Below, one piece after another: positions 15,028-42,389 of a stretch of 43,093 nt of DNA. The translations under genes and the position numbers were made by a program. Origin of the DNA: a virus; the IMG/VR virus record IMGVR_UViG_3300042558_001849, positions 1-43,093 of that record; one strand, 5' to 3'. Each line of letters opens with the position of its first letter. The first letter of the stretch is position 1. The notes below the pieces were generated by a model. That model did not search any database and had not been told where the DNA came from. It saw nothing but the letters and a program-made list of their open reading frames with translations.

Positions 15028-16308
15028 TTATCTTTTTATGTAATCTAATATATTCGGGTTTCCGTACTTCTCTTTCTCAGATTGAGACACTTCAAAATTA
15101 CCAGTTACTAACCTTTTTTTAGTGTCTGCTAATCCCCTGTAATGCAAAAATCTTATCATTTCTTCTTCTGTAAATCCGTACTTATCTGCGTATGGTTTTA
15201 ACTTTTTAATCTCTGGCTTGTAAATATCATTCACTACGTAGTTCATAAAACTTTCTTGTGTTTTGGGGGAGTTTTTGAACTCGTTCATTATCTCTTCATT
15301 GGTTCCATCTATGCCCATGTACTCACCTATTTGTTTGGCCCAATACTTAGGATGGAATTGGTACTTACCTGTGGTTCCAGTTGTAGGGTTAATCACAGAA
15401 TAATCACCTCCTGATTCGCTCTGCCCTATTCCTGCAATTACTCCGTCTGCACTCATGCCCGAATCTGATGAGTAATTTTCATACTCGTCTTGAATTGGGG
15501 AATACTCATTTTCGTCTTCAAACACCCATTTTAACAGTTCTTGGTTTTGATTTACTTTCATTTCTTGTTCTGAGTTTTCAGTACCAAGAAAAGCATTAGG
15601 ATCAAAATCAGTGGAGTAAATGTCTGTTTGGTTTGTAATTTGAGAAGCATCCCCACCTTCTTGAGCCATTCCAGAAGCCATAGTTTTAGCAAGTCCTACA
15701 TATTGAGAGGCTGCTTGTCCTACTGATGATATTCCTTGTTGTTGGGTCTGCTTGTAACGGTTGATGTTTTGTTGATTCAACCCTTGATAGTATTCTTCCC
15801 ACTGTCTTTGGATGTCTTGATTGGTGTCTTGAAGATTTAGATTAAACCCGCCTTCTTGAAAAGAATAAGGAGTATTTACATACTCGTTATTCCTTATATC
15901 CTGTTTTCTTTCCTCAAGATCAGCCTTATAAGCATTGTCTAATCTTTTTTGCTTTCTTTTTTCTTTGAAAGATTTACCTATTTGATAACCACCATAACCT
16001 GCTTGTGCAAACATCCCCAGAATAGGAATAGAACCAGCAGTTTGCCCTATTATGTCAAGCGTAGATTGAGATTGAGATTGGGATTGGGATTGGGATTGAG
16101 TAGGAGGTGTTTGAAAACTTTGTCCTTGAGGTATTTGAGAAAGCATATTTGGAATTCGAGCATTTTGTAATGCTTGAGCCTGCTGTGCCTGCTGGATTGC
16201 AGGAGCAGTCATGCTTTGTACTTGACCCAAAGGTAACTGTGGTAATTGCTGGATAACTCCACCACTTTGATATTTTTTTAAAAACTTTTTACTTCTTTCT
16301 GTTAACAT
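15028..16308 (-). CDS. Virion lytic transglycosylase-like protein with N-terminal Q-S-G-G motif (426 aa)
   Basis: The C-terminal part (about residues 284-405) contains G-Q-S-E298-S-G-G-D-Y-S, then T-G-K-Y-Q-F and a helical tail with FLHYRG. This is the pattern of a lysozyme-fold transglycosylase, with E298 as likely catalytic acid. The N terminus is KKYQSGG (11-17), followed by Gln/Ala-rich low-complexity sequence, a (QS)6 run at 71-82, a short hydrophobic Gly-rich segment (about 85-112) and two further Q-E-G-G motifs (151-154, 216-219). A virion-borne muralytic enzyme would open peptidoglycan during DNA entry. Its gene follows the muzzle gene directly with a TAATG overlap, consistent with a tail or cargo location. 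Confidence 0.7.
   Translation of the reverse strand: MLTERSKKFLKKYQSGGVIQQLPQLPLGQVQSMTAPAIQQAQQAQALQNARIPNMLSQIPQGQSFQTPPTQSQSQSQSQSQSTLDIIGQTAGSIPILGMFAQAGYGGYQIGKSFKEKRKQKRLDNAYKADLEERKQDIRNNEYVNTPYSFQEGGFNLNLQDTNQDIQRQWEEYYQGLNQQNINRYKQTQQQGISSVGQAASQYVGLAKTMASGMAQEGGDASQITNQTDIYSTDFDPNAFLGTENSEQEMKVNQNQELLKWVFEDENEYSPIQDEYENYSSDSGMSADGVIAGIGQSESGGDYSVINPTTGTTGKYQFHPKYWAKQIGEYMGIDGTNEEIMNEFKNSPKTQESFMNYVVNDIYKPEIKKLKPYADKYGFTEEEMIRFLHYRGLADTKKRLVTGNFEVSQSEKEKYGNPNILDYIKR
16064..16099. repeat. Hexanucleotide tandem repeat (GATTGR)x6
   Basis: Six perfect-length copies of GATTGA or GATTGG lie in the transglycosylase-like gene. Read on the minus strand they encode a Gln-Ser dipeptide run. 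The unit length is a multiple of three, so slippage would change linker length without breaking the frame. Confidence 0.9.
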
Positions 16309-19300: not shown

Positions 19301-20390
19301 GTTCATCCAGCCACTCTATTGCAAAGTCATAAGTTTCGTCTCTAAGAAACCCTTTAAACAAATGTGCCTCTTTTGCTGGTACTTTCTTTTCTAGCCATTC
19401 TACTTGAATGTTGTTGGCCAGAAGTTGATATTCTAAAGGTTCAACTGCTTGATGTTTCCCCAATAACAACGTTTCATCATTGGTGACTATGTGACTAGAA
19501 GTGTCATATACTACCCGTTTAGAAAGGGCTGTGTTGATGTCTAAGACGGTTGCATTCGAGAAATTAGAAAGGTTAATAGAAGTAGTTCCCTGAGAATACT
19601 CTCCAAAATTGTAAACTACTTGTCCGTTTCTGGTCTGGGTTACTAGGATTACTGTAAAATATTGAAAAGGCGAATATACGCATTCTACACTGAGATCAAA
19701 CCCTATGTCTTGTTTGTAACTTTGGTTTTTAACCACGTCACTGAAATAAAAATCAGAAAAAGTAATTCCATCCTCAGAATAAGCAATTCCAACTTGATAG
19801 GTTCCTGTGGAAAAACTTCCTTGTTTGTTTGTCTTGAGTTTAAGACAAGGAGGTTTGTGAGTTTTATTCAATCTGATTTTATTACAATCCAAAGCATCAG
19901 TTGTGATAATCCCACACGTCAAACAATCACTAGCATTAGTAACTTTGGGGTAATTTCCTAATAAAGTTTGATCTATGTTTAAATACCTGTTAGGATTCTT
20001 TCCGTCTATCCAGTAAATTATTCTTTCGTTTGTTTCATTGAGTCTCTTAGACACACCACGAATAGGAAACAAAGGGTCAAAGTTCAAACAAGGATCATTT
20101 ATTAATTCTGTTTGAGTGCAGTTTTCCAAGTTTACTAAAACTAGTTTAGAACTAGAACCTTTAAGACCTACTATGTATTGAAACTTATCTAATGAAATGG
20201 CTCCTACAAATGTGTCTGTAAATTTTACACACAACTCATTGGAGAGCATGTTTTGAATAAACACCTCTGAATTACCTTCGTGCCCTTTTACAGTCCCGTT
20301 CAACATATAAACCAAATCTCTCTGCTCTAAGGCTGAGAAATGTGAGTCCAAGTTTAATTTAGGAAATGCAAGATTTTTTACAGTCTTCAT
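16308..20390 (-). CDS. Tail muzzle / stabilisation protein, P22 gp10-like (1,360 aa)
   Basis: This is a very long, beta-rich protein directly after two ring/adaptor-type genes, exactly where crAss-like phages encode the giant 'muzzle' (stabilisation) protein related to podovirus tail-needle-hub proteins. It begins with NLAFPKLNLDSHFSALEQRDLVYMLNG, matching the usual start of this family in which the N-terminal strand precedes 'alNG' and a propeller-like repeat region. Paired Cys residues occur around 158-185 and again around 413-470. It is rich in Tyr, Trp and Asn, as expected for an exposed tail protein. The start overlaps the upstream stop as ATGA. The name rests on position, size and general sequence character. 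Confidence 0.75.
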   Translation of the reverse strand: MKTVKNLAFPKLNLDSHFSALEQRDLVYMLNGTVKGHEGNSEVFIQNMLSNELCVKFTDTFVGAISLDKFQYIVGLKGSSSKLVLVNLENCTQTELINDPCLNFDPLFPIRGVSKRLNETNERIIYWIDGKNPNRYLNIDQTLLGNYPKVTNASDCLTCGIITTDALDCNKIRLNKTHKPPCLKLKTNKQGSFSTGTYQVGIAYSEDGITFSDFYFSDVVKNQSYKQDIGFDLSVECVYSPFQYFTVILVTQTRNGQVVYNFGEYSQGTTSINLSNFSNATVLDINTALSKRVVYDTSSHIVTNDETLLLGKHQAVEPLEYQLLANNIQVEWLEKKVPAKEAHLFKGFLRDETYDFAIEWLDELGRRRGVYHIPGRALGPNYMLTTPTGVVTENADIPESLYTYENLEPCADVPTKVWEVKNTAYITSVVAGDCIACLEVPTVTKVGKMGYYECKDLKYPDENRWGNLRCQPIRRHRFPSSDLTHIHNNGTCFTETITEILGFDEDNQPVLSSYDVTKFVPDNCVNILGVRLKNVSPPVVNGQSMTGWKYRLLYSDRTGNKSILHKGLLYNVNKEVDKGTEIMYPNYPYNDLKKDVYLSKTQTNESTGFPNHLHADLYYKNRFTYHSPDIHYRETRNEFGTELKMYTEEIGKITSKFNEVYRHPKVGIGATVPDVKTSHPYAQQFDSYAQFESFQVFQEPLDERRKIEQSQWLYPIKQFVSNGERFNNKERETSYYLEVEKDVPNPINEDTSRFTRGDIDCRDSTQPCDNITIGGVEYPIQAVSYYVGVRTPQKNQYGNVNQPTYIPVESCFKNYNLQADFFGGDTYISRHSDFRKMPMFDEYLYDVPYNTEYNYRDKRNVWYPTYWYDNLTSAGDKARLSCFINNSLESGADFGYFYLWVTGCPYYWCESEFIGNFREQDMTPNSRFFPETTYFELSKADNIRLQPTYLYDFSLLNKTVEEIKLSGYTKSDANFTVTYSLKNDLQSAGDNWLKFLPLNYTILPQIYGEFTGLHYIDQYSIFFLFENMILYSQEDYTFQTNEGNTIFLAQGDIFSKRLRKVANEFTGYSGSVDPNSFINTRFGTFYLDRYRKKLFQWTGQLKELVGVSSFLETYLSNTNPGYKNSLVTVYDNFTGMLFFTDKLTGWTISYSPYTDGFISFHSFVPDWYLTMPNNFCSVKNNGIWKHNKKYDYQRYYGSVELFDVGFVEVQQEDSELQSISVIVDFIKVEGYKKFAYSKKFFDQVFVYNNNSSTGILTLLLKDRNDRTQSLSQNREGQAEVTRIKGNTFNINKLENNHSQGAILEYQSNGMYYFPLNIVDKPPTVRETIKGKWNVIHLRAAQSDKIILQLNEPLTDAINQK

Positions 20391-29163: not shown

Positions 29164-30840
29164 TTAATAAACAGGTTCAAAAATCATTTTACCTGTGAAT
29201 GGATTGATTGGTTTAATAATCAAAGATTTTGTAGGATCTACCAAACGGTAAGCCTTCAATTTCTTTTCTACATAAACTTCAAAACCCGGAATGTCTTTAT
29301 TACCGTGATGTGGCCTTCCACCCATATCTTCGTATGCTAATTTACCATTGGTATAGAAGTGGTTGAAATCCCAGTCAGCACCATAAACCAATTCTTCTAC
29401 GTTACCACCTTCACCAGAAAGATCATCAATGACCATCATATAAGAACTTAAACGGTGTCCATCATACATAGGGTTGTTGTACTCATTAGAAACGATTGGG
29501 TCAAATGCTGGTACGTGTGTAAAGTTTAAAATACCATATTCCCAACGATAAGACATAAAGTTTTGAGTGTCAAGATACAACTTCTGATTGTCAGCACCTT
29601 TGATGTAATCTTTGGCTTGTGTAATCATGTTTGCTTGTAAGAACCTGTTACGAATTTGGGTACGGATTAACTTGAGTGCACCAGCACCACAACCAATGGT
29701 CATTTCCTGAACTCCATAAGGGTCTATTTTGTCTTTCAAACGAGACAACAAAAGTGCTTCAAGACGCTCAAGAGTGAATTTAGGAATGTTGAAACTTGCG
29801 TAAGAGCCCAAGTTAAACTGATGGAACAAACCGATTGGCAGATTAACCTCAGTTTTACCATCCACCTTCATTGTGCCACCAGAACCCCAGATTGCGTAAT
29901 AGTCCACATCACGCTCTACTTCCATCATAGCAATTGCTTCTACGAGAGGAATGTATGCTTTTTTTACAATGTCTTTTTTAACAAGACCCATTGCTGCTGC
30001 TTTGTCAGTCTTGAAGTGGTTCATGTACACATCAATAGGACTAGTACCACGCATGTAAGCATCACTTGCTGGTGAACCGGGTGCAAATTGATACATTTCA
30101 CACACTTGACGGTACTCTTGAAGAGACTTAGTAATATGGCCTGATACTTGAGAATAAGCAGCATCACGTGTTACACTGAAAGATTTGTGTGCATGACCCT
30201 CACCTACGTGCAAGTAATACTCTTTAAATCCACTGGTGATAGGCGCAAGACTGTCATAAGTGCTGGAAAACTCCGAACCAATAGAACCAGTCCTAAAATA
30301 AATAGTACCTGCTTGCAACATCTCCTTGGGGAAGTACTTGTACTTTCCGTTAGTAGAATTCATGCGTACAGTGTACACAAAACCTGTTGCTGGATTGCCC
30401 GTAATTTCATCAGGTGTAACTACAAGTTCCAATGCTAGATGCTTATCTGGGGTGATGATTGCACCATTACCAAAAGAACGCTTGTTAGAAAGGATCTTAA
30501 AGGTGGTTCCATCAATACCCGGAGTTTCTGTGTTGGAAATGTCTTTCAACAACTTGGTAGGCTGAGAAGCAATAGGGTATTGAAAGCGAGCAATATGCCC
30601 ATCAATCATGGTACGCTTAACACCTTGTTTGGTATTAATCATGTCCCAAATACCGTTACGCTCCATAAAGCCAGTTGTAATCCAAGGTATAATCATACCC
30701 AAATCTGTACTGTCCGAAAAACGGTCAGTTTGGGAGTTCATGCGCAACAAGTGACCAGTGTCCAAGTTGTGCATTTCGGCATTAAATTCTTTGGTTTGTA
30801 AAAAGATGCCATTGTACAAACCCGTCTGTGGTAAATTCAT
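29164..30840 (-). CDS. Major capsid protein (558 aa)
   Basis: The size, the position after portal and scaffold-like genes, and the sequence character all point to an HK97-fold capsid protein. That character includes a long helix (F-T-L-E-R-L-E-A-L-L-L-S-R-L), Gly-rich turns, G-S-G-G-T-M, and a large mixed alpha/beta body without Cys-rich or low-complexity parts. The codon use is smooth and the gene is followed by a strong hairpin, both consistent with high expression. Crass-like MCPs are usually about 500 residues, so this one is slightly longer. The assignment rests on context plus composition; I see no short diagnostic motif. Confidence 0.7.
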   Translation of the reverse strand: MNLPQTGLYNGIFLQTKEFNAEMHNLDTGHLLRMNSQTDRFSDSTDLGMIIPWITTGFMERNGIWDMINTKQGVKRTMIDGHIARFQYPIASQPTKLLKDISNTETPGIDGTTFKILSNKRSFGNGAIITPDKHLALELVVTPDEITGNPATGFVYTVRMNSTNGKYKYFPKEMLQAGTIYFRTGSIGSEFSSTYDSLAPITSGFKEYYLHVGEGHAHKSFSVTRDAAYSQVSGHITKSLQEYRQVCEMYQFAPGSPASDAYMRGTSPIDVYMNHFKTDKAAAMGLVKKDIVKKAYIPLVEAIAMMEVERDVDYYAIWGSGGTMKVDGKTEVNLPIGLFHQFNLGSYASFNIPKFTLERLEALLLSRLKDKIDPYGVQEMTIGCGAGALKLIRTQIRNRFLQANMITQAKDYIKGADNQKLYLDTQNFMSYRWEYGILNFTHVPAFDPIVSNEYNNPMYDGHRLSSYMMVIDDLSGEGGNVEELVYGADWDFNHFYTNGKLAYEDMGGRPHHGNKDIPGFEVYVEKKLKAYRLVDPTKSLIIKPINPFTGKMIFEPVY

Positions 30841-30882: not shown

Positions 30883-32067
30883 TTATCGTGGTTGATTTAC
30901 TTTTAAATTCCACCTTGAAACCTGTTTAGTTGGTTGTTCTTTAGGAGTGGTTTTTAATTGGCCACTTTTTGAACTTGTGTCATACTTGTGGTCTTTCACA
31001 AATTCATTCGTAACTTTATTTTCTACCACTCTTCTGTATTTTTCATCAAAAGCCTTCCTGTCTGAAAGAAGTAAGGCTGCTAATGCTAAAGTCTCTACGT
31101 CTCCTTTTTCCGAGAATCTGTTGTAAGCAATCAAGGCTTCAAGGTAAGGCATTTCTGTTTTACTACCGTTTGGGAGGCTAACCGAAATAGGATTAGAATC
31201 CATAATTGCTGTTAACCTTTTGGTTTCTTCGGTTGTAAGTGCTACTTCACCTATTTTTTGAGTCTTTAAAGTGTTTTGTACTTTGCTCAAAAAGTTTTGT
31301 CTGCGTTGTTGTTCCATAGCCTTCATCTCTCTTACTCCTTCTTCTTTTTTTCTTGCAACTTCTTCCGTCTTTTGGTCCAGTTTAGGTTTAATCCGAGTAG
31401 CCTCTTTAGAAAGCAAACCTGCTGTTTTTAAGTCTGCTACCTTTTCATCTACTTCTTCACTGGTCCAATTTTCATTCTGAAACCAAGTACGAACTATTTT
31501 TTCTTGGTCAAACTCATTGTCTAAAGAAAGAGTTTTGATATTACTCTCTTCGACTAAAACCCGCATAAAACTTAAAATTTCAGCAGGGTCTTTTGATTCC
31601 AAATCAAAGTCAATAATTCTTTGAGTGACTGGTGAAATGTCATTCGTGTAAAAATCTTGAATGGCTTCATCTTTTGCAAGGTCAACATTGTGCGCAATTA
31701 ATTTACTAATTACTTCCAAGGTTGGTTCTGTTGTGTCATCAAATCCTTCATACGGTTTTAAGTTACCTCCGAAAATATTGTCTGCAAGAGAATTGGCTAT
31801 GGTTACATATTCATTCTCTATTTCTGCGTTTGCGTCAGCATCTTTAGGTTCTCCAAGATCAAAACTTAAATCGTCTTTATTTACTGTACTATCTAATGTC
31901 AAAGAAAAATCCTCTTTAGTAGGATCTGGTTTTACTGGTTCTGGTGTTTTTTCTCCTTCTACTGTAACCACTTTATCTATTGGTGCAGTGTCTGAAAAGT
32001 CTAGTTCTGTTGCTTTTACCAAAGGATCTGAGAACCCCAAATCTATTGATTGTGTTGATTTAAACAT
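30883..32067 (-). CDS. Scaffold-like head assembly protein (394 aa)
   Basis: The first 100 residues are acidic and disordered (rich in Asp, Glu and Pro). The middle is helical, with a charged coiled-coil segment near 225-265 (E-E-V-A-R-K-K-E-E-G-V-R-E-M-K). The C terminus is basic and disordered, ending K-V-N-Q-P-R. An acidic body with a short basic C-terminal tail between portal and capsid genes is the usual pattern of a scaffolding protein. A TTTG-N19-TATATTTA promoter-like pair lies upstream. No protease motif is visible. Confidence 0.6.
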   Translation of the reverse strand: MFKSTQSIDLGFSDPLVKATELDFSDTAPIDKVVTVEGEKTPEPVKPDPTKEDFSLTLDSTVNKDDLSFDLGEPKDADANAEIENEYVTIANSLADNIFGGNLKPYEGFDDTTEPTLEVISKLIAHNVDLAKDEAIQDFYTNDISPVTQRIIDFDLESKDPAEILSFMRVLVEESNIKTLSLDNEFDQEKIVRTWFQNENWTSEEVDEKVADLKTAGLLSKEATRIKPKLDQKTEEVARKKEEGVREMKAMEQQRRQNFLSKVQNTLKTQKIGEVALTTEETKRLTAIMDSNPISVSLPNGSKTEMPYLEALIAYNRFSEKGDVETLALAALLLSDRKAFDEKYRRVVENKVTNEFVKDHKYDTSSKSGQLKTTPKEQPTKQVSRWNLKVNQPR

Positions 32068-32111
32068 AAATGTACGTCGTTTAATCTAGTGATTTTAAAT
32101 TTTTTAGTTAT

Positions 32112-32142
32112 TAAATATAGTTATTTTAAATTTGATTGCAAA
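32112..32142 (-). promoter_or_regulatory. Promoter-like TTTG-N19-TATATTTA before the scaffold-like gene
   Basis: On the minus strand TTTG (32139-32142) is followed after 19 nt by TATATTTA (32112-32119), one base short of TAnnTTTG. This matches the Bacteroidetes -33/-7 spacing. The predicted leader is about 35-40 nt. Confidence 0.45.
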
Positions 32143-32150
32143 GCAAACTC

Positions 32151-32169
32151 TAATTAATTTGGTTAATTA
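32151..32169. other. AT-only inverted repeat after the portal gene
   Basis: TAATTAA, five spacer bases, then TTAATTA make a 7-bp A/T stem. It lies 12 nt past the portal stop. It is too weak for a reliable terminator and could equally be an operator. Confidence 0.4.
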
Positions 32170-32181
32170 ATTACTTGTTTA

Positions 32182-34863
32182 CTATTTGTTTACTACTGCT
32201 ACTTTCAAATTATCTTTAGAAATTTTAAGTTTTGCAGCAATTTCTTCACGTTTTACTTGTAATTCCTCCCTTCTTAGAGATTCATTGGTGTCATTAGTAA
32301 GTCTGTCTGCTTTTAGTTTTTCCCTCATAGCACCTCTTTGAGACTCAGCCTCTTTTGCTTGGTTTAAGACAGACATATAGTAATCTTTTTCTGCAAGATC
32401 TGCCTTTTTTAAGTTAAGTAATTCCTCAACTCCTGTACCTTGCCCAAATGAAGACTGGCCTACTACACGCATTTCTTGAATGTATTCATCTGATTCTATC
32501 TTGAGAAGTAGTTTTTCTTTTTCCCACGCTAATTCAGAAGCCTTAATTCTCTCATCTGCTTCAATTTTTGCTTGTAATTGTCTTTGTTCGTTTTCTTGTT
32601 GCTTCTGGACTTCCGCTTGTTTTTTTACAGTCAAATCTTTAAGAGCAGAATATATGTCTGAAAGAGAATGAGTACTTAACATTTTAATCTTGTCTTCTAA
32701 ATCAGCACCCATAGTATTGTCCCTACGTACCATTTCTTTCATCTCTGCAATTAATAGTGCATCATCAAAACTTGAGGATGTGTAAACTCCTAACATGTAA
32801 AGAGGAAAATCCTCAGTAGTAGTCTGAAATATTTGTCTTTCCCCCTCAGAGTTAAGATAAGAATCAGCAGTACTTCCTTCTTTGATTTTTAGATACTTGG
32901 TAATCTCTAGGAAAGTTTGCCAACCCTTTTCCATCATGGAATAATGGTCATCATACACCTCTTTGACTGCGTTTACAGTTCTTTGCACTCCTTGTGCTAT
33001 TCCTGCTTCTGTTTCCTGAGGACTTATTTCTGAAAGGAATTGAGAAGTAATTCCTAAGACCGAATAGCACTCTTCTTTAATAGACATGGCCAATTGTACT
33101 TTTTGGGCAATTTCATCCATTCTACTCAAATCCACTTTCTGACCAAACCCACCAGTGAGTTGACTTCCTCCTTGCATGTTAGAAGGAGAAGTGTCCACAG
33201 CACCAATACCTAAGTCACGGGCTGTCATTGCAAACTTTACAAGATTATTTTTGCCCCAAGAACCATCCATAGATTCAGAAGGAATAGCATTTTGGTTCAT
33301 CACAAAGAATGGACCTATTTCAGTCTTTAGAATTTGCATGATGCGATTCCACACAAAATTAAAAGCAATTTCCCATACTTCTGTTTTGTCCACAATCTGA
33401 CTAGACTCTGAATACTTATTGGTAGTGGCTCCACCGTGTACAGGAATGTAAGATCCAAACCTTCCTATTTTTGGATCTGAGAGTTGAACTTTATATTTTT
33501 CGATGCTTAACCAAACATCATCACTGAGGTCAGGATTTGCATTCCGTGAGAAATTTAATTTCTGGACTCTGTGGAGTTCGTTAATATAAAATACTTCCAC
33601 ATGTTCACCTTCGAGAAGATATTCTGCTGTTTTTGGTTTACCCTTTAAATAAGTGGGCTTAAAGACTGGAAGGTATGTTTCATCCACTATCTTAGTAACT
33701 TCCTCTTCACCTACTCGGAAAGTGACTTTTTTCATAATACGTGGAATTTGCACGTACATATTCAATATCTCAACCAACCTTTCTCTGTATTCTTCTCCCC
33801 TGTGTCTGTGAGTAGTGTCTTCTTCTGTTCTAAACGCGAGATAATTTTGGATGTCTGCTTCTACTGGTTTCTTAGTCTCAAACTCAAAATTAGCAGCAGT
33901 CGTTGCTGTGAAGTTAGTACTGCCAAATCTCAAGTGTAATTTCTGAATGGTTTCTTCATTTAATTTATCTCCGAACCTTTGAATAATAGTTTCAGGAGCC
34001 TCATACTCGTACCACATAAACATGTAAGAATGACTTACATCATCGTTGTGAGGACTTTTTAAATAGGCAGCATTTTCTGGTCTGATTACTTCTGGTCTTA
34101 CTTCATCTTCTTTAAGATTAAGATGTAGGAAAGGTCTGTCATTAATAATCCGGTTTCTAAAGAGTTGTTTTTCTATGTCTGGCATATTAAACTTTCTTTT
34201 GGCGTTTTCCATGACATGATTGGCCCACTGTTCAATAGTTAATCTAAATTCTGTGTTGTAATACTTCTGAATTTTTGGGAGTTGTTGGAATATTTTAATT
34301 TGTTCCTCATAGACATCTGGTTGACTTTCAGGTGTAATCCCTTGGGCTTCTAGGTCTTGGTTAAAAAACTGCATAGCACTAGAAACTAGAAGGTTTCTAA
34401 TGTCTCCATTCTTGCGGTCAAGTATGTCATTCTGGGCCTCTCTGTTTACAGCGAGTACTGAGTAACCTACTTTAGTCTTAGAGAGAAAAGAAGTTAACAC
34501 ATTGACTATTTTAGAGGTTAAAGGGAAAAACTCTATTTCTTCCAATTCATCCTCTACGTTGTCCACTAAAGACAACTCCTCTTTTAAAGAAGTGTCCTTT
34601 AAATAATCTTTAAGGTCAAGAGTACCATTGGCTCTTTGTTGATTTTTTATAATTTTGTTACGATTTGCAGCAATGGTTCTTCTTCCTTTCTGCTCGTATA
34701 TTAATACGTTCTGTTTTAATAACCTAAAATCATTTTCTGTTTTATCTTTCTCAGTCAGAACCAACTTGTTTTCGTTGAACCTGTGTAATACGTGAGAAAA
34801 ATCAGAACCTTTTTTGTTAGGTATTTTTATTTTTGGCCCTGTCTTTGACCCTAATTTGTCCAT
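32182..34863 (-). CDS. Portal protein (893 aa)
   Basis: It follows the large terminase gene and precedes the scaffold and capsid genes, and is the size class of crAss-like portals. The N-terminal half is rich in helices and strands with aromatic residues, including Y-M-F-M-W-Y-E-Y-E-A-P-E-T and L-R-F-G-S-T-N. An I-S-P-Q-E-T-E-A-G-I-A-Q-G-V-Q segment near residue 610-625 resembles the portal helix region where a Gln/Thr-rich loop precedes the stem. The last about 150 residues are a long charged coiled coil with Gln-rich repeats, as in portal crown/barrel domains. A perfect TAnnTTTG box sits upstream. Confidence 0.75.
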   Translation of the reverse strand: MDKLGSKTGPKIKIPNKKGSDFSHVLHRFNENKLVLTEKDKTENDFRLLKQNVLIYEQKGRRTIAANRNKIIKNQQRANGTLDLKDYLKDTSLKEELSLVDNVEDELEEIEFFPLTSKIVNVLTSFLSKTKVGYSVLAVNREAQNDILDRKNGDIRNLLVSSAMQFFNQDLEAQGITPESQPDVYEEQIKIFQQLPKIQKYYNTEFRLTIEQWANHVMENAKRKFNMPDIEKQLFRNRIINDRPFLHLNLKEDEVRPEVIRPENAAYLKSPHNDDVSHSYMFMWYEYEAPETIIQRFGDKLNEETIQKLHLRFGSTNFTATTAANFEFETKKPVEADIQNYLAFRTEEDTTHRHRGEEYRERLVEILNMYVQIPRIMKKVTFRVGEEEVTKIVDETYLPVFKPTYLKGKPKTAEYLLEGEHVEVFYINELHRVQKLNFSRNANPDLSDDVWLSIEKYKVQLSDPKIGRFGSYIPVHGGATTNKYSESSQIVDKTEVWEIAFNFVWNRIMQILKTEIGPFFVMNQNAIPSESMDGSWGKNNLVKFAMTARDLGIGAVDTSPSNMQGGSQLTGGFGQKVDLSRMDEIAQKVQLAMSIKEECYSVLGITSQFLSEISPQETEAGIAQGVQRTVNAVKEVYDDHYSMMEKGWQTFLEITKYLKIKEGSTADSYLNSEGERQIFQTTTEDFPLYMLGVYTSSSFDDALLIAEMKEMVRRDNTMGADLEDKIKMLSTHSLSDIYSALKDLTVKKQAEVQKQQENEQRQLQAKIEADERIKASELAWEKEKLLLKIESDEYIQEMRVVGQSSFGQGTGVEELLNLKKADLAEKDYYMSVLNQAKEAESQRGAMREKLKADRLTNDTNESLRREELQVKREEIAAKLKISKDNLKVAVVNK

Positions 34864-34880
34864 AATCTATATTTTGTGCG

Positions 34881-34908
34881 CAAATTTAGTATATTTCTAT
34901 TAAGCAAG
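34881..34908 (-). promoter_or_regulatory. Promoter-like element before the portal gene
   Basis: TAAATTTG on the minus strand (34881-34888) matches TAnnTTTG exactly. CTTG lies 16 nt upstream, shorter than the usual -33 spacing. ATG is 17 nt downstream. Confidence 0.5.
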
Positions 34909-34955
34909 GTAGTAAAGCAAATAAATTTTATTATTATTTACTAACCTTGGGCTTA

Positions 34956-37900
34956 TTATTTTCTTTTCTTAAAAGGAGAACCCATTTTCATTACTACTTT
35001 TTGCTCTCTTTTTACTCCGTTTTCTCTTACTTGTCTTTGCTCTTTTACTACTAGATTTCGATTGGTGTTTGATCTGGCTGCAATTAAGGCAAATGTAAAT
35101 GCAACTAATCGGTCTGTGTTTAACTTAGGGGTGTATTTGAGCATCTCCTCTAGGAGCATAACATCTCTTAGTCTTGTAACTCCATACACGGGAGTTTTTT
35201 CCCCGTCTTTCATTATGTTAAGGATAACTTCATCAACATAAGCAACTGCAAAATCTAAAGCCTTTTTTTTAAATTCTCCCTCCATCCTAATTCCTATTTC
35301 GTTTACTATGGTAGAATTGGGCATCCATTCGTTTAGAAGGTATATTTCTTTTCTTTTCATAAACATGTGCCCTAAGTCTTTTCCTATGGCCCATTCGTGA
35401 AAACCTGTTACGTTTGATTCTACTGCTATTCGAGCATTGTAATATTTGCAAAGGTTCATGCACGTTTCGTAAGTTTCTTCCCAAGTTGGATACCTACCTG
35501 TGTATCTGGCCACTGGAAAATCACTTACCATTTGCCCATTAGCATTTACGTGAGCAGCCTTAAATATAACCACTGACATCAAAGACTTAGAAGTAGTGGT
35601 GTTGGTTTGTCTGATAGGGTCAATTCCTGCGTAATATAAACCCCAAGGTGGATTATCTATTGGTAGTTCATCTACTTCTACTACTCCTCTATTATCCTTA
35701 GTGGGGTCAACCTTTAGAGTTGAGATAGGTTTGTTGTACGAGATTTTGTGGGTGATTTTACTGTCAGTAACTTCCAGTTCTACTGTAAGAGGTTTATAGG
35801 TTTGACGAAGTAAAGTCTGGTGTTCTTTTATGATTCGAGTGGGGAAAATATTATCCTCCCGGATAGCAAAAGCATCTTGAAGATTAAAAGGATGCTGAGA
35901 TTTCCAAAGAATGTAATTGTCTTTTTCTCTCCTTTTTTCGTCTTCTAAGTTAAGATAGTACTTGGCTAATTCTATGTCTGAATTTCCATCCTTATCGTAA
36001 CACTTAATCTGTTTACCATCAACACTTGCTATATAATTCCAAAAGTCTGGGAAAAAGAAACAAATCTCTTCATCTGATTCTACCTCTGAGAATATATCTT
36101 TGATCCCTAAGAACCCATAACCAGAAGGATTGAAAGCAATGTTTTCTAATGGCCCACAATCTTTTAATTCACCCACGGCTCCTGATACTGTAATGTGCCC
36201 AGTTTTAACACCTCCCATTTTTGTGGCTGCTTCTGCAAACTCCAACACTTTGTCTAGGTTTGGAGCAATGCCTGCTTCTTCGTGAAAAAGATCAGTTATG
36301 TGACCACCTACTGCTTTTGCAGGGTTCTTTTTAGTGGTGGCTGCCACTAAACGAGATTTTAATCCTACCCATTTTTTCTTTGTGTTAACTGTACCTTCAA
36401 TTACACTTCTTTTCTGTTCCCATTCTAGTCCTGCATCTGGTTCAAATGATCTGTACCAAGGAGTATGCTCATTTAGAAAGTTACGGTAGTTAACAGCAAA
36501 TTTCCAAGAACCATTAGTGTTTACAAAATCTTCTTCATATCCTATGACTTTACAAACACTCTGCTTAACAAACCATAGTTTTCTCATTAACTTTGACATT
36601 AGTTTCAGTGTGTTATGAGTAAGTACATAGTCTTTAGTAATGTAAGTATGGCTAGGATGGTCAACTTCAATACAAGTGGACTCTTCTTTTCCAAGTTTTA
36701 CTACATTAATAATACTGTTTTTTGTACGTCTTTCTCTGTCTAGTATTTGTCTGTATTTCTTACGCCTTAATCTAAACAACCTTATTTTATTTCCAATACG
36801 TACCCTCCAAAATATGTGGTCAGTTTCTTTTGCTGGTGGAAATTCACAACTATGAACTGGAATCCCCAAAGACCTGCATAATTCTACCACATCTGCTTGA
36901 AGTCTTTCGGATGTAGTCGTAAGTTGAATATCATAACCTTGTTCAGAAATATACCCGTCTGTATCCATAAGCCCCTGTAATAAGGCTATCCGGTTTTCTA
37001 CACTAGATTTTAAATAAACCTCTGGAATGAATTTGTTGTAGCAAGTCGTACCTGTTAAACCTAACTCCTTTAGTTCTCTTAACAAAGGATTTACACCATA
37101 TTGAGCGTTTACATATTTAGAATCTAAAGATGTAAATCTTTTTGCATACATAATAGTGGCCCGGTAATGATTTTCTGCTTGTTCTCTTTCACCTGTATGG
37201 TAATCTTCTCCAAGGTCTTCAAGGACTAAATCAAATACTTCTTGGTCTGCTGAGGTCAGCCTACATTGAGATTTGGTGAAAGAACCATCACCTAGTAAAG
37301 CACCCAAAGCATACGCAGGGATTGGCACAGTATTCTCAGGATAAATAATGGGATCAATTTCCTCCACTCCATACCTATAACCTTTATACTCTTTTTTCTC
37401 CCCACTTTTTAAAGTTGCTGTTGCTTTATAAGTTATGCCTTTTTCTAACATTTGCTTCAAAGACAAAACTTTTAAAGTATTCCTTTCTCGCACCTCCCAG
37501 AGATGATTAATACCACATCTTACTTTTCTTTTGTCCAAAAATTCTATTTCGTAAACATCTTTTACTCCTTGTGGATAAACACCTATTACATTGGTTAACT
37601 TGCCATCTTTAGAATAAACTTTGTCTCCTACTTTTAAATCTCCAATAGGTCTAAAACCATGTTCTGTGAGTACAGGTTCTGAATTAGGTTGTTCAAAGCC
37701 TTTCTGGCGGGCTTTGCAGACAGCAGAGTTTAGATCAGATAATCTAGCAATTTCGTCATACAAATAAAAATGGTAATCTCCATCCCATAATTCTGCAAAA
37801 TCCTCCCTACCTTTTAATTTATCTACAATAGGAGTGTAGTTAAGATACCAATAAAAATCTCCGGGTAAATAAAACTCGTTAATGATTACACCTTGACCTA

Positions 37901-38144
37901 TTTTTTTCTTCTCAAAAGCAAAATGTTCTTTGTATTGTTCTGAGTCTTCCGAGAAGTCACAATACCTTCCTGTCGTTTGGAATTTAGTGGCAGGTTCAAC
38001 CCATAGATAAGTGTCATACAAACCATATTTACCCGGTTCTTTGAACTGAGATTTTACGTATGCAAGAAACTCCTTGTCATTTTCGTAAATAGTGTATGAC
38101 CAAACTCCATTTTTAAGAGTAGGTATTCGCTTTGTTGTAAACAT
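34956..38144 (-). CDS. terL: Terminase large subunit (TerL), interrupted by an intein
   Basis: Residues 144-150 are K-A-R-Q-K-G-F and residues 512 onward are T-L-K-L-M-S-K. Joined, they give K-A-R-Q-K-G-F-T-L-K, a Walker A-like motif of phage TerL. Walker B with the catalytic Glu lies at D618-L-F-H-E622-E623. The nuclease acids appear as A-G-I-D842-P, I-A-V-E909-S-N and N-T-D1011-R-L. A 361-residue intein (151-511) is inserted exactly in the P-loop, so the unspliced protein should lack ATPase function; the mature extein product is about 701 residues. The gene starts at 38144 in a TAATG overlap with the small upstream gene and is followed by the portal gene. TerL translocates DNA into the procapsid and cuts concatemers. 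Confidence 0.9.
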   Translation of the reverse strand: MFTTKRIPTLKNGVWSYTIYENDKEFLAYVKSQFKEPGKYGLYDTYLWVEPATKFQTTGRYCDFSEDSEQYKEHFAFEKKKIGQGVIINEFYLPGDFYWYLNYTPIVDKLKGREDFAELWDGDYHFYLYDEIARLSDLNSAVCKARQKGFEQPNSEPVLTEHGFRPIGDLKVGDKVYSKDGKLTNVIGVYPQGVKDVYEIEFLDKRKVRCGINHLWEVRERNTLKVLSLKQMLEKGITYKATATLKSGEKKEYKGYRYGVEEIDPIIYPENTVPIPAYALGALLGDGSFTKSQCRLTSADQEVFDLVLEDLGEDYHTGEREQAENHYRATIMYAKRFTSLDSKYVNAQYGVNPLLRELKELGLTGTTCYNKFIPEVYLKSSVENRIALLQGLMDTDGYISEQGYDIQLTTTSERLQADVVELCRSLGIPVHSCEFPPAKETDHIFWRVRIGNKIRLFRLRRKKYRQILDRERRTKNSIINVVKLGKEESTCIEVDHPSHTYITKDYVLTHNTLKLMSKLMRKLWFVKQSVCKVIGYEEDFVNTNGSWKFAVNYRNFLNEHTPWYRSFEPDAGLEWEQKRSVIEGTVNTKKKWVGLKSRLVAATTKKNPAKAVGGHITDLFHEEAGIAPNLDKVLEFAEAATKMGGVKTGHITVSGAVGELKDCGPLENIAFNPSGYGFLGIKDIFSEVESDEEICFFFPDFWNYIASVDGKQIKCYDKDGNSDIELAKYYLNLEDEKRREKDNYILWKSQHPFNLQDAFAIREDNIFPTRIIKEHQTLLRQTYKPLTVELEVTDSKITHKISYNKPISTLKVDPTKDNRGVVEVDELPIDNPPWGLYYAGIDPIRQTNTTTSKSLMSVVIFKAAHVNANGQMVSDFPVARYTGRYPTWEETYETCMNLCKYYNARIAVESNVTGFHEWAIGKDLGHMFMKRKEIYLLNEWMPNSTIVNEIGIRMEGEFKKKALDFAVAYVDEVILNIMKDGEKTPVYGVTRLRDVMLLEEMLKYTPKLNTDRLVAFTFALIAARSNTNRNLVVKEQRQVRENGVKREQKVVMKMGSPFKKRK
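36612..37694 (-). mobile_element. LAGLIDADG-type intein in the TerL Walker A loop, with class 3 features
   Basis: It spans TerL residues 151-511. The junction after F150 begins E-Q-P-N, with no Cys or Ser at position 1. The C end is T-H510-N511 followed by Thr512. A Trp at 216 in I-N-H-L-W-E-V, Cys491 in T-C-I-E-V and Thr512 form the W-C-T set that defines class 3 inteins, which splice through a Cys in block F instead of residue 1. Two LAGLIDADG motifs are visible: A-L-G-A-L-L-G-D286-G and L-Q-G-L-M-D-T-D396-G, each with its acidic residue, so the homing endonuclease may be active. The exact N-junction is inferred from extein continuity. Confidence 0.85.
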
Positions 38145-38692
38145 TAAAAATCAGAGTTTGTATCATCCTCATCAATTGCTATTTTGGATGCACCTTTTCG
38201 TTTAATAACTTCTTGCCTGAATGCAGCATCTACTGCATTAAAGTTGTTGATAGTGGTAGAGGCGTTGTTTTGAATTTGCTGGATATTTGCCAAGTTTCCA
38301 TCTTTTCCTCCCACTACTTGAGCAGTTCTCAGATAATCACCCACATTATCCATTGCTATTTTTAAGGATTGAAGGTATCTTTGCGTGGGTGTTTCACACA
38401 ATTCCTTCATTTTTTCTGCTGCTTCTATGAGAGGAATATCAAAAGAAGGGTTGTAATCACCCGGACAGTCTTTCATAACTCTTTCCTTCCTAAAATCTTC
38501 GTGAAGCAAAAGATGGGGGCTTTCCGGGTCATACATAAAATGAAGATAAGTAAATGCTGATATGGCATTGTTCATACCGTTTACCTCGTCCTTATTTACA
38601 TAGTAATCGTATGCCTTTCTGAAAGCAGGAACTACTAATATAACCTCGTTTACTATGACTCTATTTTCTTTTATTGTTAGTACTTTTTGCAT
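38144..38692 (-). CDS. Hypothetical protein, candidate small terminase subunit (182 aa)
   Basis: A mixed alpha/beta N-terminal part (V-P-A-F-R-K-A-Y-D-Y-Y-V-N-K-D) is followed by helices and an acidic C-terminal tail (D-E-D-D-T-N-S-D-F). Its TAATG coupling to TerL and its size are typical of a small terminase subunit. I see no clear helix-turn-helix motif, so the TerS label is from position only. It overlaps the nuclease gene by 32 nt. Confidence 0.5.
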   Translation of the reverse strand: MQKVLTIKENRVIVNEVILVVPAFRKAYDYYVNKDEVNGMNNAISAFTYLHFMYDPESPHLLLHEDFRKERVMKDCPGDYNPSFDIPLIEAAEKMKELCETPTQRYLQSLKIAMDNVGDYLRTAQVVGGKDGNLANIQQIQNNASTTINNFNAVDAAFRQEVIKRKGASKIAIDEDDTNSDF

Positions 38693-39422
38693 TTTTAAAA
38701 TGATTTAGTAATGCTATGACTTCTTTCTTTAGATAATTAACTGGATATGGAACTGACTCAAATGCTTTATTTTCTGAGAATAAAATATGATGAATGGTTA
38801 GTCCGTTTGGTTTTAACTTATACCCTGCTTGTTCTAAAATGTAAGCGTATATGCTTAATTGGAGAGTGTAATGAGTCCCGTTACAATCACCTAAATGTGA
38901 AATAGGTGGATACATTTTTTTCTCACTTCGAGTTTTAGAGTCGGGGTTAAAAACCATAAACCCGCTAAACTTCAATTCTTTATTAGTCTTGAAATCCTCA
39001 AGTATAAATGTTTTGTCCTCAAATATCTCTACGTAATCTGCTGTACCAGTTAGATCGAACTCAGGCAAGTAAACCATAAGTTCTGGATACACACCCGGTT
39101 TTAGATTGGTAATATCGAATGCTTCTTTTAAGCCATTCCTTTCTTCGTGTTTGAATACTTTTCTTTTTTTGTCCTTGTAGTATTCTTCTTCTCGAAAAGC
39201 ATGATACGCTTTCCCCCTAACTATTGACTTATCATTTTCCTCTTTCCATTCTTTGAGAATTAACTCAGGGGTGGTTTTTCTTTTCTCAGCCACTTTAACA
39301 GACATTTTTTCTGCGTCAAAGTGCTCGTGGTATTGAGCAAGGAGCCTTGAGACAGAAGTCAATTCTTTCTCAGGGGCATCTCTCCAAAAGTATCTGTGTT
39401 CTTCTTCGTTAAATAATAACAT
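38661..39422 (-). CDS. PD-(D/E)XK nuclease, Cas4/RecB-like (253 aa)
   Basis: The protein shows G-K-A-Y-H with a nearby Glu cluster, P-E-L-M-V-Y, then G-T-A-D-Y-V-E-I and I-L-E-D-F-K-T-N-K as the D-x(n)-D/E-x-K core. A helix T-L-Q-L-S-I-Y-A-Y-I-L-E (QxxxY) follows. This is the order of the RecB/Cas4 nuclease fold. I see no four-Cys iron-sulfur cluster set, so it is not a classic Cas4. A nuclease next to terminase is common in crAss-like genomes, where it may process ends or degrade host or recombining DNA. The gene ends in TAG, which argues against TAG recoding in this phage. Confidence 0.85.
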   Translation of the reverse strand: MLLFNEEEHRYFWRDAPEKELTSVSRLLAQYHEHFDAEKMSVKVAEKRKTTPELILKEWKEENDKSIVRGKAYHAFREEEYYKDKKRKVFKHEERNGLKEAFDITNLKPGVYPELMVYLPEFDLTGTADYVEIFEDKTFILEDFKTNKELKFSGFMVFNPDSKTRSEKKMYPPISHLGDCNGTHYTLQLSIYAYILEQAGYKLKPNGLTIHHILFSENKAFESVPYPVNYLKKEVIALLNHFKNAKSTNNKRK

Positions 39423-39712
39423 TATATAATCTTGCCTTTAATGATAAAATTGTGTGTAATTCCCCCTACTTTAATCCAAGCAGATTCATCCACCACACCA
39501 AATTGATTTGTTTTATCTATGGTAACTATTACGTTAAAAGCCTCATCTTTTTCTACTATCCTAGGAAATGAAACAGTGGTGCAACTGCAACTAACCCCTG
39601 AATCTTCTATGGTTAAAATGTCTCCGAAGTTCCTTCCTGCAAAGAAGAATGTACTCGGTGATGTGCTGCTTATAATCTGATTGTGAAGTGTGTTTGTGTT
39701 AAATCTTAGCAT
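39422..39712 (-). CDS. DUF1573-like single Ig domain protein (96 aa)
   Basis: Residues 36-55 contain S-G-V-S-C-S-C-T-T-V-S-F-P, and later strands include F-N-V-I-V-T-I-D and I-K-V-G-G-I-T-H. The C-x-C-T-T signature followed by a beta strand pattern is typical of DUF1573 (ASPM-SPD-2-Hydin-like) domains. A single-domain form in a phage may decorate the head or act in the host envelope; neither is shown. The stop meets the next gene's start at 39422. Confidence 0.55.
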   Translation of the reverse strand: MLRFNTNTLHNQIISSTSPSTFFFAGRNFGDILTIEDSGVSCSCTTVSFPRIVEKDEAFNVIVTIDKTNQFGVVDESAWIKVGGITHNFIIKGKII

Positions 39713-40092
39713 GGTGGGTTGTCTTTAAATAGGTTAGTAAACAAATCAGTGTCTGTCAAAGAAACCCCCCATGTCAATCTTGGGGAATTTTTTAGAACAT
39801 TAAATCCCATAGGATCAGTAGCATAAAGCCAATCATTTGCTGAAAGGTTTTCTGCGGAAACAGATTCAATAAAGTTTTTGTGGATTTCTACTTTATTTTC
39901 ACCAGCGTCATTTAAGTAAAACTCGTACAATTTACCATTAATAAGTCCTATGGTTAGTTTTTCTGCCCCATCTCGCCATATTCTTCTAAAAGCAAAATAA
40001 CCATTTTTTAGCCTTTGGTAATTAAAAGTAGTTTCTATTGGTTCTTGTATGTTCATAAGTGGGTTTTGATGAACTGGATATTGGTGATACAT
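39706..40092 (-). CDS. DUF2829/Tad2-like protein B (128 aa), candidate Thoeris inhibitor
   Basis: The start chosen is ATG at 40092, one base after the previous stop. Residues about 22-38 read Q-R-L-K-N-G-Y-F-A-F-R-R-I-W-R-D, and later come L-S-A-N-D-W-L-Y-A-T-D-P-M-G-F. The order LKxG, R-x-x-W and then D-L-x-A-x-D-W is the family pattern of DUF2829, which includes Tad2. Tad2 sequesters the signal molecule gcADPR made by Thoeris ThsB. It is a clear paralogue of the gene just upstream but has a longer loop between the two motifs. A defence-inhibitor role is inferred from family only. Confidence 0.55.
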   Translation of the reverse strand: MYHQYPVHQNPLMNIQEPIETTFNYQRLKNGYFAFRRIWRDGAEKLTIGLINGKLYEFYLNDAGENKVEIHKNFIESVSAENLSANDWLYATDPMGFNVLKNSPRLTWGVSLTDTDLFTNLFKDNPPC

Positions 40093-40093
40093 A

Positions 40094-40420
40094 TTATTTT
40101 GTGTAAGGTTTAAAAAACATTGGTTGAATAGGCGGGTTTTGTTTACCACTATAATAATGAGAACTAGTAGCACAAATAACTGGTGGTAGATTTTCTTTTA
40201 CTTTTGTATAACCATAAGGGTCTAAAAAATACTCCCAGTCATCCGCTAATAAATCTTCTGTTAATGGGTTCCACACTCTACTAGTAGAAGTTGTAGCAGT
40301 ATTTTCTGTTTCTAATTCGTGCAATAAAAAAGTAGAATTTCTTATCCCCAAGAAAAATGGATCCCAAGATTTTCTCTTTGCAAATTGCCCGTTTTTTAAT
40401 CTTTGAATATCTAATAACAT
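40094..40420 (-). CDS. DUF2829/Tad2-like protein A (108 aa), candidate Thoeris inhibitor
   Basis: ATG at 40420 is one base after the preceding stop; an in-frame upstream start inside that gene is less likely. The first 25 residues read L-D-I-Q-R-L-K-N-G-Q-F-A-K-R-K-S-W, and near residue 55 D-L-L-A-D-D-W-E-Y-F-L-D-P-Y-G-Y follows. This is the strongest Tad2/DUF2829 match of the pair. Tandem paralogues with the same Q-R-L-K-N-G-x-F-A-x-R-x-x-W start suggest duplication and divergence, possibly to bind different signalling nucleotides. The family link is by motif only. Confidence 0.6.
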   Translation of the reverse strand: MLLDIQRLKNGQFAKRKSWDPFFLGIRNSTFLLHELETENTATTSTSRVWNPLTEDLLADDWEYFLDPYGYTKVKENLPPVICATSSHYYSGKQNPPIQPMFFKPYTK

Positions 40421-40421
40421 A

Positions 40422-40700
40422 TTATTTGTTTTTAAGTTTGAATTTTTTCCATTCACTCTCATTTAACATTTCAGGATAACAATTTCCTTCACATGCTTTG
40501 CTTGAGTAAAAAAGTTCTGGTGTTTTGCATTTGCAAATTTTGCAGTGTCCATTGAGGCATTCTGGGGATATTTCTTTGACTAGGATTTCTCTGAGTACAA
40601 CTTGTTCTCGAATGTAACCCGGAAGTCCTTTAAATCTGTATCTAAAGTGCCCTTGAAAAAATGCGTAAATATTTTTAAGTGTTATTTGATTTAGTTTCAT
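40422..40700 (-). CDS. Cys-rich small protein with probable zinc site (92 aa)
   Basis: The C-terminal half carries E-C-L-N-G-H-C-K-I-C-K-C-K-T, then K-A-C-E-G-N-C-Y-P-E-M, a set of Cys residues fit for one or two zinc sites. The N terminus has G-L-P-G-Y-I-R-E-Q-V-V-L-R-E, a pattern I associate with small Bacteroidetes phage proteins of unknown function. Both ends are tightly joined to neighbours (TAATG upstream, one base downstream). Confidence 0.65.
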   Translation of the reverse strand: MKLNQITLKNIYAFFQGHFRYRFKGLPGYIREQVVLREILVKEISPECLNGHCKICKCKTPELFYSSKACEGNCYPEMLNESEWKKFKLKNK

Positions 40701-41083
40701 TATTTTTTCCTTGTTTTAAATGTCCTTCCTCTGGTAAGAAGGGTGTTTGAGTATTCTAAGTATTTTTCTTGCTCTTCTAGGTTCCTTTCCACGTTTTTAT
40801 TTAAGACCTTAATCTTGGGAGACAAATCATTAAATCCTTTTATTTTTCTTCTATTTGAGTTGACCACTTCTTTTAACTTTTTATTAGAGGTAGCCACTGT
40901 CCCTAAGTTTAAGAATCTGTATTCAAGTTTGTCTGTGGTTTCTACTCTTGACTTAAAGTGCTTAAAGTATCCTTTGACAAAACTCCACAATTCATCCTGA
41001 TCTAGTTCTGGATGTAACTCCTTAATAAGATCAAGATATTTAGTTTTTAAAGTTTCTATGGTTAACGTGGTCTTGCTCTTCAT
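40700..41083 (-). CDS. Hypothetical basic helical protein (127 aa)
   Basis: I chose the ATG at 41083 over a TTG one codon upstream. The protein is helical and Lys-rich with E-L-W-S-F-V-K-G-Y-F-K-H-F and a basic C terminus (R-G-R-T-F-K-T-R-K-K). It overlaps the upstream gene by 44 nt and the next start as TAATG. DNA or RNA binding is plausible from charge, but no family is recognised. Confidence 0.65.
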   Translation of the reverse strand: MKSKTTLTIETLKTKYLDLIKELHPELDQDELWSFVKGYFKHFKSRVETTDKLEYRFLNLGTVATSNKKLKEVVNSNRRKIKGFNDLSPKIKVLNKNVERNLEEQEKYLEYSNTLLTRGRTFKTRKK

Positions 41084-41453
41084 CAAATGAGTACTGACTA
41101 ATTAAAACATAAGGAGTGTGTACTAAGTTTATGTCAGGGTTTAAAATCGCATCAGGCCAATGCCCATGTATTAGGTTTTCCCTGCGGAGCGCACTTTCAT
41201 AATTGTTCATAGAATCTGGAGAAGTACTGATTCGAGACTCTAAGACTTTCTCCTTATAATCTTTGCCATAGACTATAAAGTAAGCCAAAATGTATTTTTT
41301 AGTCTCTGTGGTTCCTTTTTCTTGGAGAATAATGTCTAGTTGACGTTTATAAAATTCAACCTTAGACAGTTTTTCTTCCATAAAGTTAACCGAGACTCCC
41401 TGATCTATGACTACTTCTACTCCTAGTTTATCTTTTAATGGTGTTATTTGCAT
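41040..41453 (-). CDS. Hypothetical protein (137 aa)
   Basis: The centre of the protein (about 40-95) is helical and has a weak helix-turn-helix look around S-M-N-N-Y-E-S-A-L-R-R-E-N. The C terminus (N-P-D-I-N-L-V-H-T-P-Y-V-L-I) is strand-like. It is the first gene after an 89-nt gap and may start a small transcript, though I see no clear TAnnTTTG box there. Function unknown. Confidence 0.6.
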   Translation of the reverse strand: MQITPLKDKLGVEVVIDQGVSVNFMEEKLSKVEFYKRQLDIILQEKGTTETKKYILAYFIVYGKDYKEKVLESRISTSPDSMNNYESALRRENLIHGHWPDAILNPDINLVHTPYVLISQYSFDEEQDHVNHRNFKN

Positions 41454-41542
41454 TTAATAATTTTTGATTTAAATTAACTGATAAAAGTGGAAACCACAAT
41501 TTGTAAATAACTTTGTAGTATGTAACTATACTTATTTTTGCC

Positions 41543-41893
41543 CTAGTGTTTAACCGTATATGTGACATATCTATTTATGATTTTTTTGAAAATAAAGTTG
41601 TTCAAATAAGCAAATGCTTCATCATTCTCTTGAGAAATAGGTACTCCCACTGCGTGAAGAATGTAAGAAGTAGCATGAATACATTCGTGGTTTAAGTTTG
41701 AGAGAAAATTTAAATCAGGAACCAACATGTAAACAGTATGATTATCCTCATCGTAGTATGTGACTGCACAAGCATTTTTATAGTCTATTGATTTTTTTGT
41801 GACTTTTTTAAATACTTCCGCACATTTCTCAATAGTGTCTTCCGTGATGAAGACTATTGCAGCATTGTATATTTCTACTTTAAATCTTAGCAT
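41543..41893 (-). CDS. Minimal zincin-like metalloprotease (116 aa)
   Basis: H69-E-C-I-H73 with a likely third ligand E92 in N-D-E92-A-F-A-Y-L gives a short gluzincin-like site. The first 60 residues form a beta sheet-type region ending M-L-V-P-D-L-N-F-L-S. At 116 residues it is about the minimum for a zincin fold; similar small proteins are common in Bacteroidetes phages as far as I recall. The start overlaps the DUF5662 gene's end by 14 nt. Substrate unknown. Confidence 0.65.
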   Translation of the reverse strand: MLRFKVEIYNAAIVFITEDTIEKCAEVFKKVTKKSIDYKNACAVTYYDEDNHTVYMLVPDLNFLSNLNHECIHATSYILHAVGVPISQENDEAFAYLNNFIFKKIINRYVTYTVKH

Positions 41894-42389
41894 TTAGGAT
41901 AATTTTTACACATTCATGCACTTTTTTTGCTGTACTTTCCGCAAATCCGAATTTGTGAATATTACTTTGTACCCAAGTTTCAAAAGGATTTCCGTATGAT
42001 TTTCCTGCTCCTATCCAATCAGCCAGCATTTCGATGATGTAAATGTCGGGCATTTCTAAAGGGCTTGTTATTCCTGATTTATCTACCATGAACCAGTGTT
42101 CAGGATGATGAGGATTATTCATGTAATGGTGATGCCACGCTAGATCAAAAGCATTAATTACTTCTGGGGTTCTAGGTACTCCTTCTTCTCCAAAGAAATA
42201 ATCAGCATAACCCTTAAATTCTGCCTTAGAGTATTTAGACTTGTCATGCTTGTCTAAATTGGACATGAATTTAATTGTGGAGTATTCTAAAGGTAAGTCC
42301 AGTTCCATTAAAACCTGACCTGCTTCCTGAACAAATCTTATATGACTGTTCACTGTGTTTAAGTAAAGTTCTTCTTTTAAATTTTTCAT
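41880..42389 (-). CDS. DUF5662 protein, HD-like metal-site protein (169 aa)
   Basis: The protein contains H-D-K-S-K-Y-S near residue 42, A-W-H-H-H-Y-M-N-N-P-H-H-P-E-H-W near 85-100, and E-M-L-A-D-W near 125-135. This His/Asp pattern matches DUF5662, and it resembles an HD-type phosphohydrolase site. I start at ATG 42389, which begins M-K-N-L-K-E-E; an upstream extension would add a hydrophobic peptide not expected in the family. A TAnnTTTG box ends 4 nt before this ATG. The cellular role is unknown; nucleotide hydrolysis is a guess from the motif. Confidence 0.75.
   Translation of the reverse strand: MKNLKEELYLNTVNSHIRFVQEAGQVLMELDLPLEYSTIKFMSNLDKHDKSKYSKAEFKGYADYFFGEEGVPRTPEVINAFDLAWHHHYMNNPHHPEHWFMVDKSGITSPLEMPDIYIIEMLADWIGAGKSYGNPFETWVQSNIHKFGFAESTAKKVHECVKIILNAKI

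Follow-up and report, generated by a model that had tools for sequence, protein, structure and literature searches.

The gene for the large terminase subunit (TerL) of a crAss-like phage is very probably interrupted, within a deviant P-loop, by a full-length class 3 intein that carries a LAGLIDADG homing endonuclease and would splice as proposed below. The window, by which we mean the whole stretch of DNA analysed, is a virus record of 43,093 bases, and the TerL precursor occupies an open reading frame of 1062 aa at 34956-38144 (-), stop codon included. An N-extein of residues 1-150 (37695-38144 (-), from alignment with intein-free TerLs) and a C-extein of residues 512-1062 (34959-36611 (-), from TerL alignments), which starts with Thr512 at +1, flank an insert, bounded by residues 150 and 512, that gives Hint and LAGLIDADG matches. 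Alignments, the structural model and family comparison place the intein at TerL residues 151-511 (361 aa, E1 to N361), and its position at 36612-37694 (-), the in-frame codons for E151-N511, agrees exactly with that given in the initial annotation. Sequence comparison and a predicted structure establish its architecture, junctions, catalytic residues and relatives, as well as the empty site in a sister phage.

On the C-extein side, residues 512-1051 match phrog_6681, terminase large subunit (E 1.2e-64), and the C-extein includes a Walker B-like LFHEEAG (619-625) and a nuclease domain. Virion genes of crAss-like type are present in the window: the Crassvirus major capsid (Crass_capsid PF23898) at 29164-30840, the crAss muzzle (PF25731) at 16308-20390, a portal matching phrog_6547 and a sub-threshold match to the cargo protein PF25725. 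TerL homology together with this gene neighbourhood identifies the window TerL, as judged from sequence, as that of a crAss-like phage (Crassvirales). Named relatives of the portal and capsid are Leptolyngbya phage Lbo-JY46 and csAssE-Sib, at about 20-26% identity, and the portal resembles those of Cellulophaga phages at about the same level (20-26%). Used as single queries, the window TerL or portal matched only a 131-kb contig with identical sequence. Because 11,186 bases of the window (30959-42144) are 100% identical to part of that 131,429-base IMG/VR contig, IMGVR_UViG_3300034279_001376, the two are probably the same phage. At its left end the window also has an open reading frame of at least 1346 aa (2-4039 (-)) that runs off the edge.

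To fix the junctions, the intein was removed by script and the resulting product, computed at 701 aa as had been predicted (about 81.2 kDa, with an intein of about 41.5 kDa), was aligned to nine TerLs. The P-loop column stays in register across all nine, with KARQKGF|TLK in the window facing, for example, KSRRKGY|SFK in crAss-like TerLs that are intein-free there. L036, a 56-kb contig, serves as the best control: it encodes an intein-free TerL of 717 aa, 46% identical across 706 alignment columns, in which KARQKGI|SLY faces the window's KARQKGF|T without a gap at the join. Because the alignment to intein-free TerLs, L036 above all, is gap-free at that point, the boundaries lie at Phe150|Glu151 and Asn511|Thr512, where the initial annotation had put them. 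That annotation had also placed the insert exactly in the Walker A loop, which is correct insofar as it sits directly before the P-loop Ser/Thr, the classic place, but the loop itself is deviant and does not have the lysine of GK[S/T]. The N-extein ends in the deviant Walker A KARQKGF (37695-37715 (-)), and the residue before the Ser/Thr, where GK[S/T] has its Lys, is Phe in the window and Ile in L036; most of the crAss-like TerLs compared have Tyr or Phe there.

The insert is not a chance occurrence, because tblastn with the intein matches 768 phage records (best E about 1e-51), and in 730 of these the match covers 80% or more of the intein. Neither Rfam families nor tRNAs were found in the window, and we rejected an intron on those grounds. 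The GC content of intein and exteins is alike (about 0.35-0.37), so that base composition does not point to a recent arrival; at third codon positions the intein is slightly poorer in GC than the exteins (GC3 0.24 vs 0.30). A 100% identical copy occurs in L001, such that one allele of this exact intein was found among the sequences compared.

Class 3 inteins are defined by Trp at B:12, Cys at F:4 and Thr at G:5, and their +1 residue (G:8) is Ser or Thr (Tori and Perler, PMC5222942). In the window intein, His214-Leu-Trp216 (37497-37505 (-)) supplies the B:10 His and the B:12 Trp, is near-invariant in 14 aligned inteins, and aligns through Trp216 with Trp67 of MchDnaB1. Cys491 (36672-36674 (-)), the predicted first nucleophile at F:4, aligns to Cys124 of MchDnaB1 and is invariant in the 14. 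Thr509-His510-Asn511 (THN, in LTHN; 36612-36620 (-)) occupies G:5, G:6 and G:7 and is likewise invariant, and Thr512 (36609-36611 (-)), assigned from the TerL alignments, is both the +1 residue (G:8), predicted to act as second nucleophile, and the Ser/Thr of the TerL P-loop. The block F-G of the window intein aligns to CVEVDNPAHLYL..THN of MchDnaB1. His B:10, His-Asn at G:6-G:7 and a +1 Ser/Thr are thus all present, as His214, His510, Asn511 and Thr512. The N-terminal Hint segment with blocks A and B (intein 1-70, 37485-37694 (-)) aligns to the class 3 DnaB inteins 6rix, 6riy and 6bs8 and to gp41-1. Within it, Gly61 stands at the threonine position of the B-block TxxH motif, which does not contradict a class 3 assignment because that Thr is generally missing from class 3 inteins (PMC6195587). 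The initial annotation had located Trp216, Cys491, Asn511 and Thr512 correctly; its reading of the W-C-T triplet was right for Trp216 and Cys491, but the T of the triplet is Thr509 at G:5 and not Thr512, which is the +1 residue. Because Thr509 is present at G:5, the class 3 call survives this correction.

An intein of class 1 or class 2, with a hidden Cys or Ser as its first residue or with Thr512 attacking the N-terminal junction directly and Cys491 dispensable, would share some of these features, since Asn511 and a +1 Thr512 fit any intein class and the class 1 intein gp41-1, a close fold match to the window intein, also has THN (PMC7664689). However, the empty site in L036, together with the EQP start of the L083 and L119 inteins, fixes the junction such that position 1 is Glu151, as claimed, and is not a Cys, Ser or Thr nucleophile. 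The complete W-C-T set is present and is conserved in the family. We consider a class 1 or class 2 mechanism highly improbable.

The endonuclease domain spans about residues 119-318 of the intein (36741-37340 (-)), from Pfam LAGLIDADG_3 (E 9e-9) and Hom_end matches and a match of the model to I-Tsp061I over 119-318. Both of the expected LAGLIDADG motifs are found with their acidic residues intact: YALGALLGDG (residues 278-287, acid Asp286; 37284-37313 (-)) and LLQGLMDTDG (388-397, acids Asp394 and Asp396; 36954-36983 (-)). With these two motifs and a matching fold, the insert is predicted to encode a LAGLIDADG homing endonuclease. The AlphaFold2 model of the intein (mean pLDDT 90.6, pTM 0.88), built in line with a check that had been suggested for the Hint domain, gives a complete PI-SceI-like protein with Hint and LAGLIDADG parts, which superposes on PI-SceI along its entire length (Z 27.9, 2.9 A over 319 residues). 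Among mini-inteins it is closest to two of class 3, Msm DnaB (6bs8; Z 20.4, 1.6 A over 123 residues) and Mch DnaB1 (6rix; Z 20.0), but the scores of the Prp8 and gp41-1 inteins are no more than 1 Z unit away. Because these scores are so near, fold alone cannot set the class, and it is the residues that do.

The sequence conservation also bears on whether the splicing domain might have decayed, leaving TerL dead or in two fragments. Decay does occur in the family, as in the L026 intein, whose LAGLIDADG acids are lost (GNG, INTG). In the window intein, by contrast, every residue needed for splicing is intact, as are the acids of both LAGLIDADG motifs, and TerL is an essential protein with conserved exteins; we give decay almost no probability.

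Relatives of the class 3 intein were collected with a scan that used a 3-row intein alignment. In intein numbering, C341, T359, H360 and N361 do not vary among the 14 aligned inteins, and W66 hardly does. A broader set of 94 related inteins, from viral contigs and phage records, was found entirely by similarity to the window-intein family and includes some near-duplicates; 94/94 of its members have both the Trp of block B and a Thr at G:5. The +1 residue is Thr in 69, Ser in 24 and Cys in 1. In 86 rows the intein starts with Glu (50), Ala (29) or Asp (7), and in one with Cys; the last two residues of the N-extein are GK in 85 and GY or GF in 5. Cys F:4 in the related inteins was read by eye from the block F-G tails; L120 has two inteins, of which the tail shown is that of the second, and the first has Cys F:4. 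A related class 3 intein occupies the same insertion site in five other crAss-like TerLs (L083, L119, L120, L123 and L139). In L119 the context, KARQKGF|EQPNSEP, is identical although the exteins are only about 25% identical. The TerL of L083 (L083:372-4565) has two inteins, one of class 3 in the P-loop and one of class 1 (Cys1, HN|C) near the C-terminus.

On the intein tree, the window intein groups with eight others in a supported set (98/86) whose nine members are six crAss-like TerL inteins together with L017, L019 and L118. The inteins of DAC15 and cr111_1 belong to another supported set, and the two sets imply that the inteins of crAss-like TerLs arose more than once or have moved. Bacterial genomes scanned with the intein yielded one relative, the Thomasclavelia cocleata copy (L117), at a locus of 7,080 bases whose size and match coordinates are as in L026. 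There, a class 3 intein lies in a Sak4-like P-loop protein (L026:3001-4080), apparently in a Thomasclavelia cocleata element; this is the copy without LAGLIDADG acids.

The exonuclease gene beside terL (38661-39422 (-), phrog_298) is intein-free in the window, but its ortholog in L036 (L036:361-2121) contains a class 3 intein at the active-site motif, GDYK|G...THN|TNQELK. For terL the pattern is reversed, and the mosaic distribution suggests that inteins were gained and lost through homing; the window and its intein-free sister L036 form a clean pair for homing tests. The PHROGs "terminase large subunit" families 19299, 36964 and 15 match non-terminase proteins through their intein part (L026:2911-5103 and L036:361-2121), which is likely an annotation trap. 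Profile annotation of TerL should allow for the intein, as the intein itself appears to be what several "terminase" profiles match.

We infer that the intein splices, that its endonuclease cuts and that the element homes. In the proposed mechanism, Cys491 (F:4) would attack the Phe150-Glu151 bond to give a block F branched intermediate, the N-extein would be transferred to Thr512 (+1), and Asn511 would then cyclise, yielding the 701-aa TerL and a free 361-aa intein. The endonuclease would copy the element into intein-free TerL genes at co-infection. An intein lodged in the codons for the ATP-binding loop may be retained because the site is conserved and packaging would be restored only by precise splicing or precise loss. 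Since the precursor would be unable to form a normal P-loop, the TerL ATPase should need splicing; by analogy, the P. horikoshii RadA P-loop intein has been reported to disrupt ATPase function (PMC6195587).

Whether splicing also times DNA packaging, as the initial annotation proposed by way of inference, is a separate question, and that proposal found no support. Slow or conditional splicing that delays packaging would be in keeping with an insertion that should block ATP binding by the precursor, and the class 3 P-loop intein of M. smegmatis DnaB is inhibited by peroxide via a disulfide with its catalytic cysteine (PMC6195587). However, five phage TerL inteins studied elsewhere were fast to splice in a reporter, and only one of them left readily visible precursor (PMC5050341); moreover, L036, the closest TerL relative compared, is intein-free, so that no conserved need is seen. 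We regard regulation of TerL by the intein as very unlikely. The residue aligned to the redox Cys48 of DnaBi1 is Val47 in the window intein, and a toggle of the DnaBi1 type is rejected because the cysteine it needs is replaced. A conditional switch using some other sensor, with TerL active only once splicing is released late in infection, seems slightly less probable again.

Earlier publications already describe class 3 inteins in phage TerL, inteins of the TerL P-loop and inteins of crAss-like TerLs (PMC5050341, PMC7886860). What is added is the placement of the class 3 mechanism and a common P-loop site in several crAss-like TerLs, including some with a Walker A without the usual lysine. The mycobacteriophage TerL inteins (Kelley et al. 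2016, PMC5050341), for which splicing and cutting are proven by experiment, share with the window the TerL host, P-loop sites (TerL1-a and TerL1-b), class 3 members and LAGLIDADG, but belong to other TerL families and hosts, and TerL1-a inserts between an invariant Lys and Thr whereas the window has Phe before Thr. The mini-inteins Mch DnaB1 and Msm DnaBi1 (6rix, 6bs8) share the Hint fold and the W, C, T, H and N catalytic residues, but are without an endonuclease. PI-SceI (the VMA intein), which resembles the window intein along its full length in combining Hint with LAGLIDADG, differs in being class 1 with Cys1 and in being longer (454 residues). From the same phage order and gene come the crAss-like TerL inteins in the cited parts of Yutin et al. 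(2021, PMC7886860), according to which TerL of the Delta group typically contains an intein; there, one TerL's inteins are termed Hint-Hop type and a splicing class is not given, and the window phage is only distantly related to the genomes named. The TerL inteins of Bacteroides phage DAC15 and cr111_1 have the class 3 signature and the TerL P-loop site, as in the window, but are only 29% and 27% identical to the window intein and share their separate supported branch with inteins that other phages have in P-loops.
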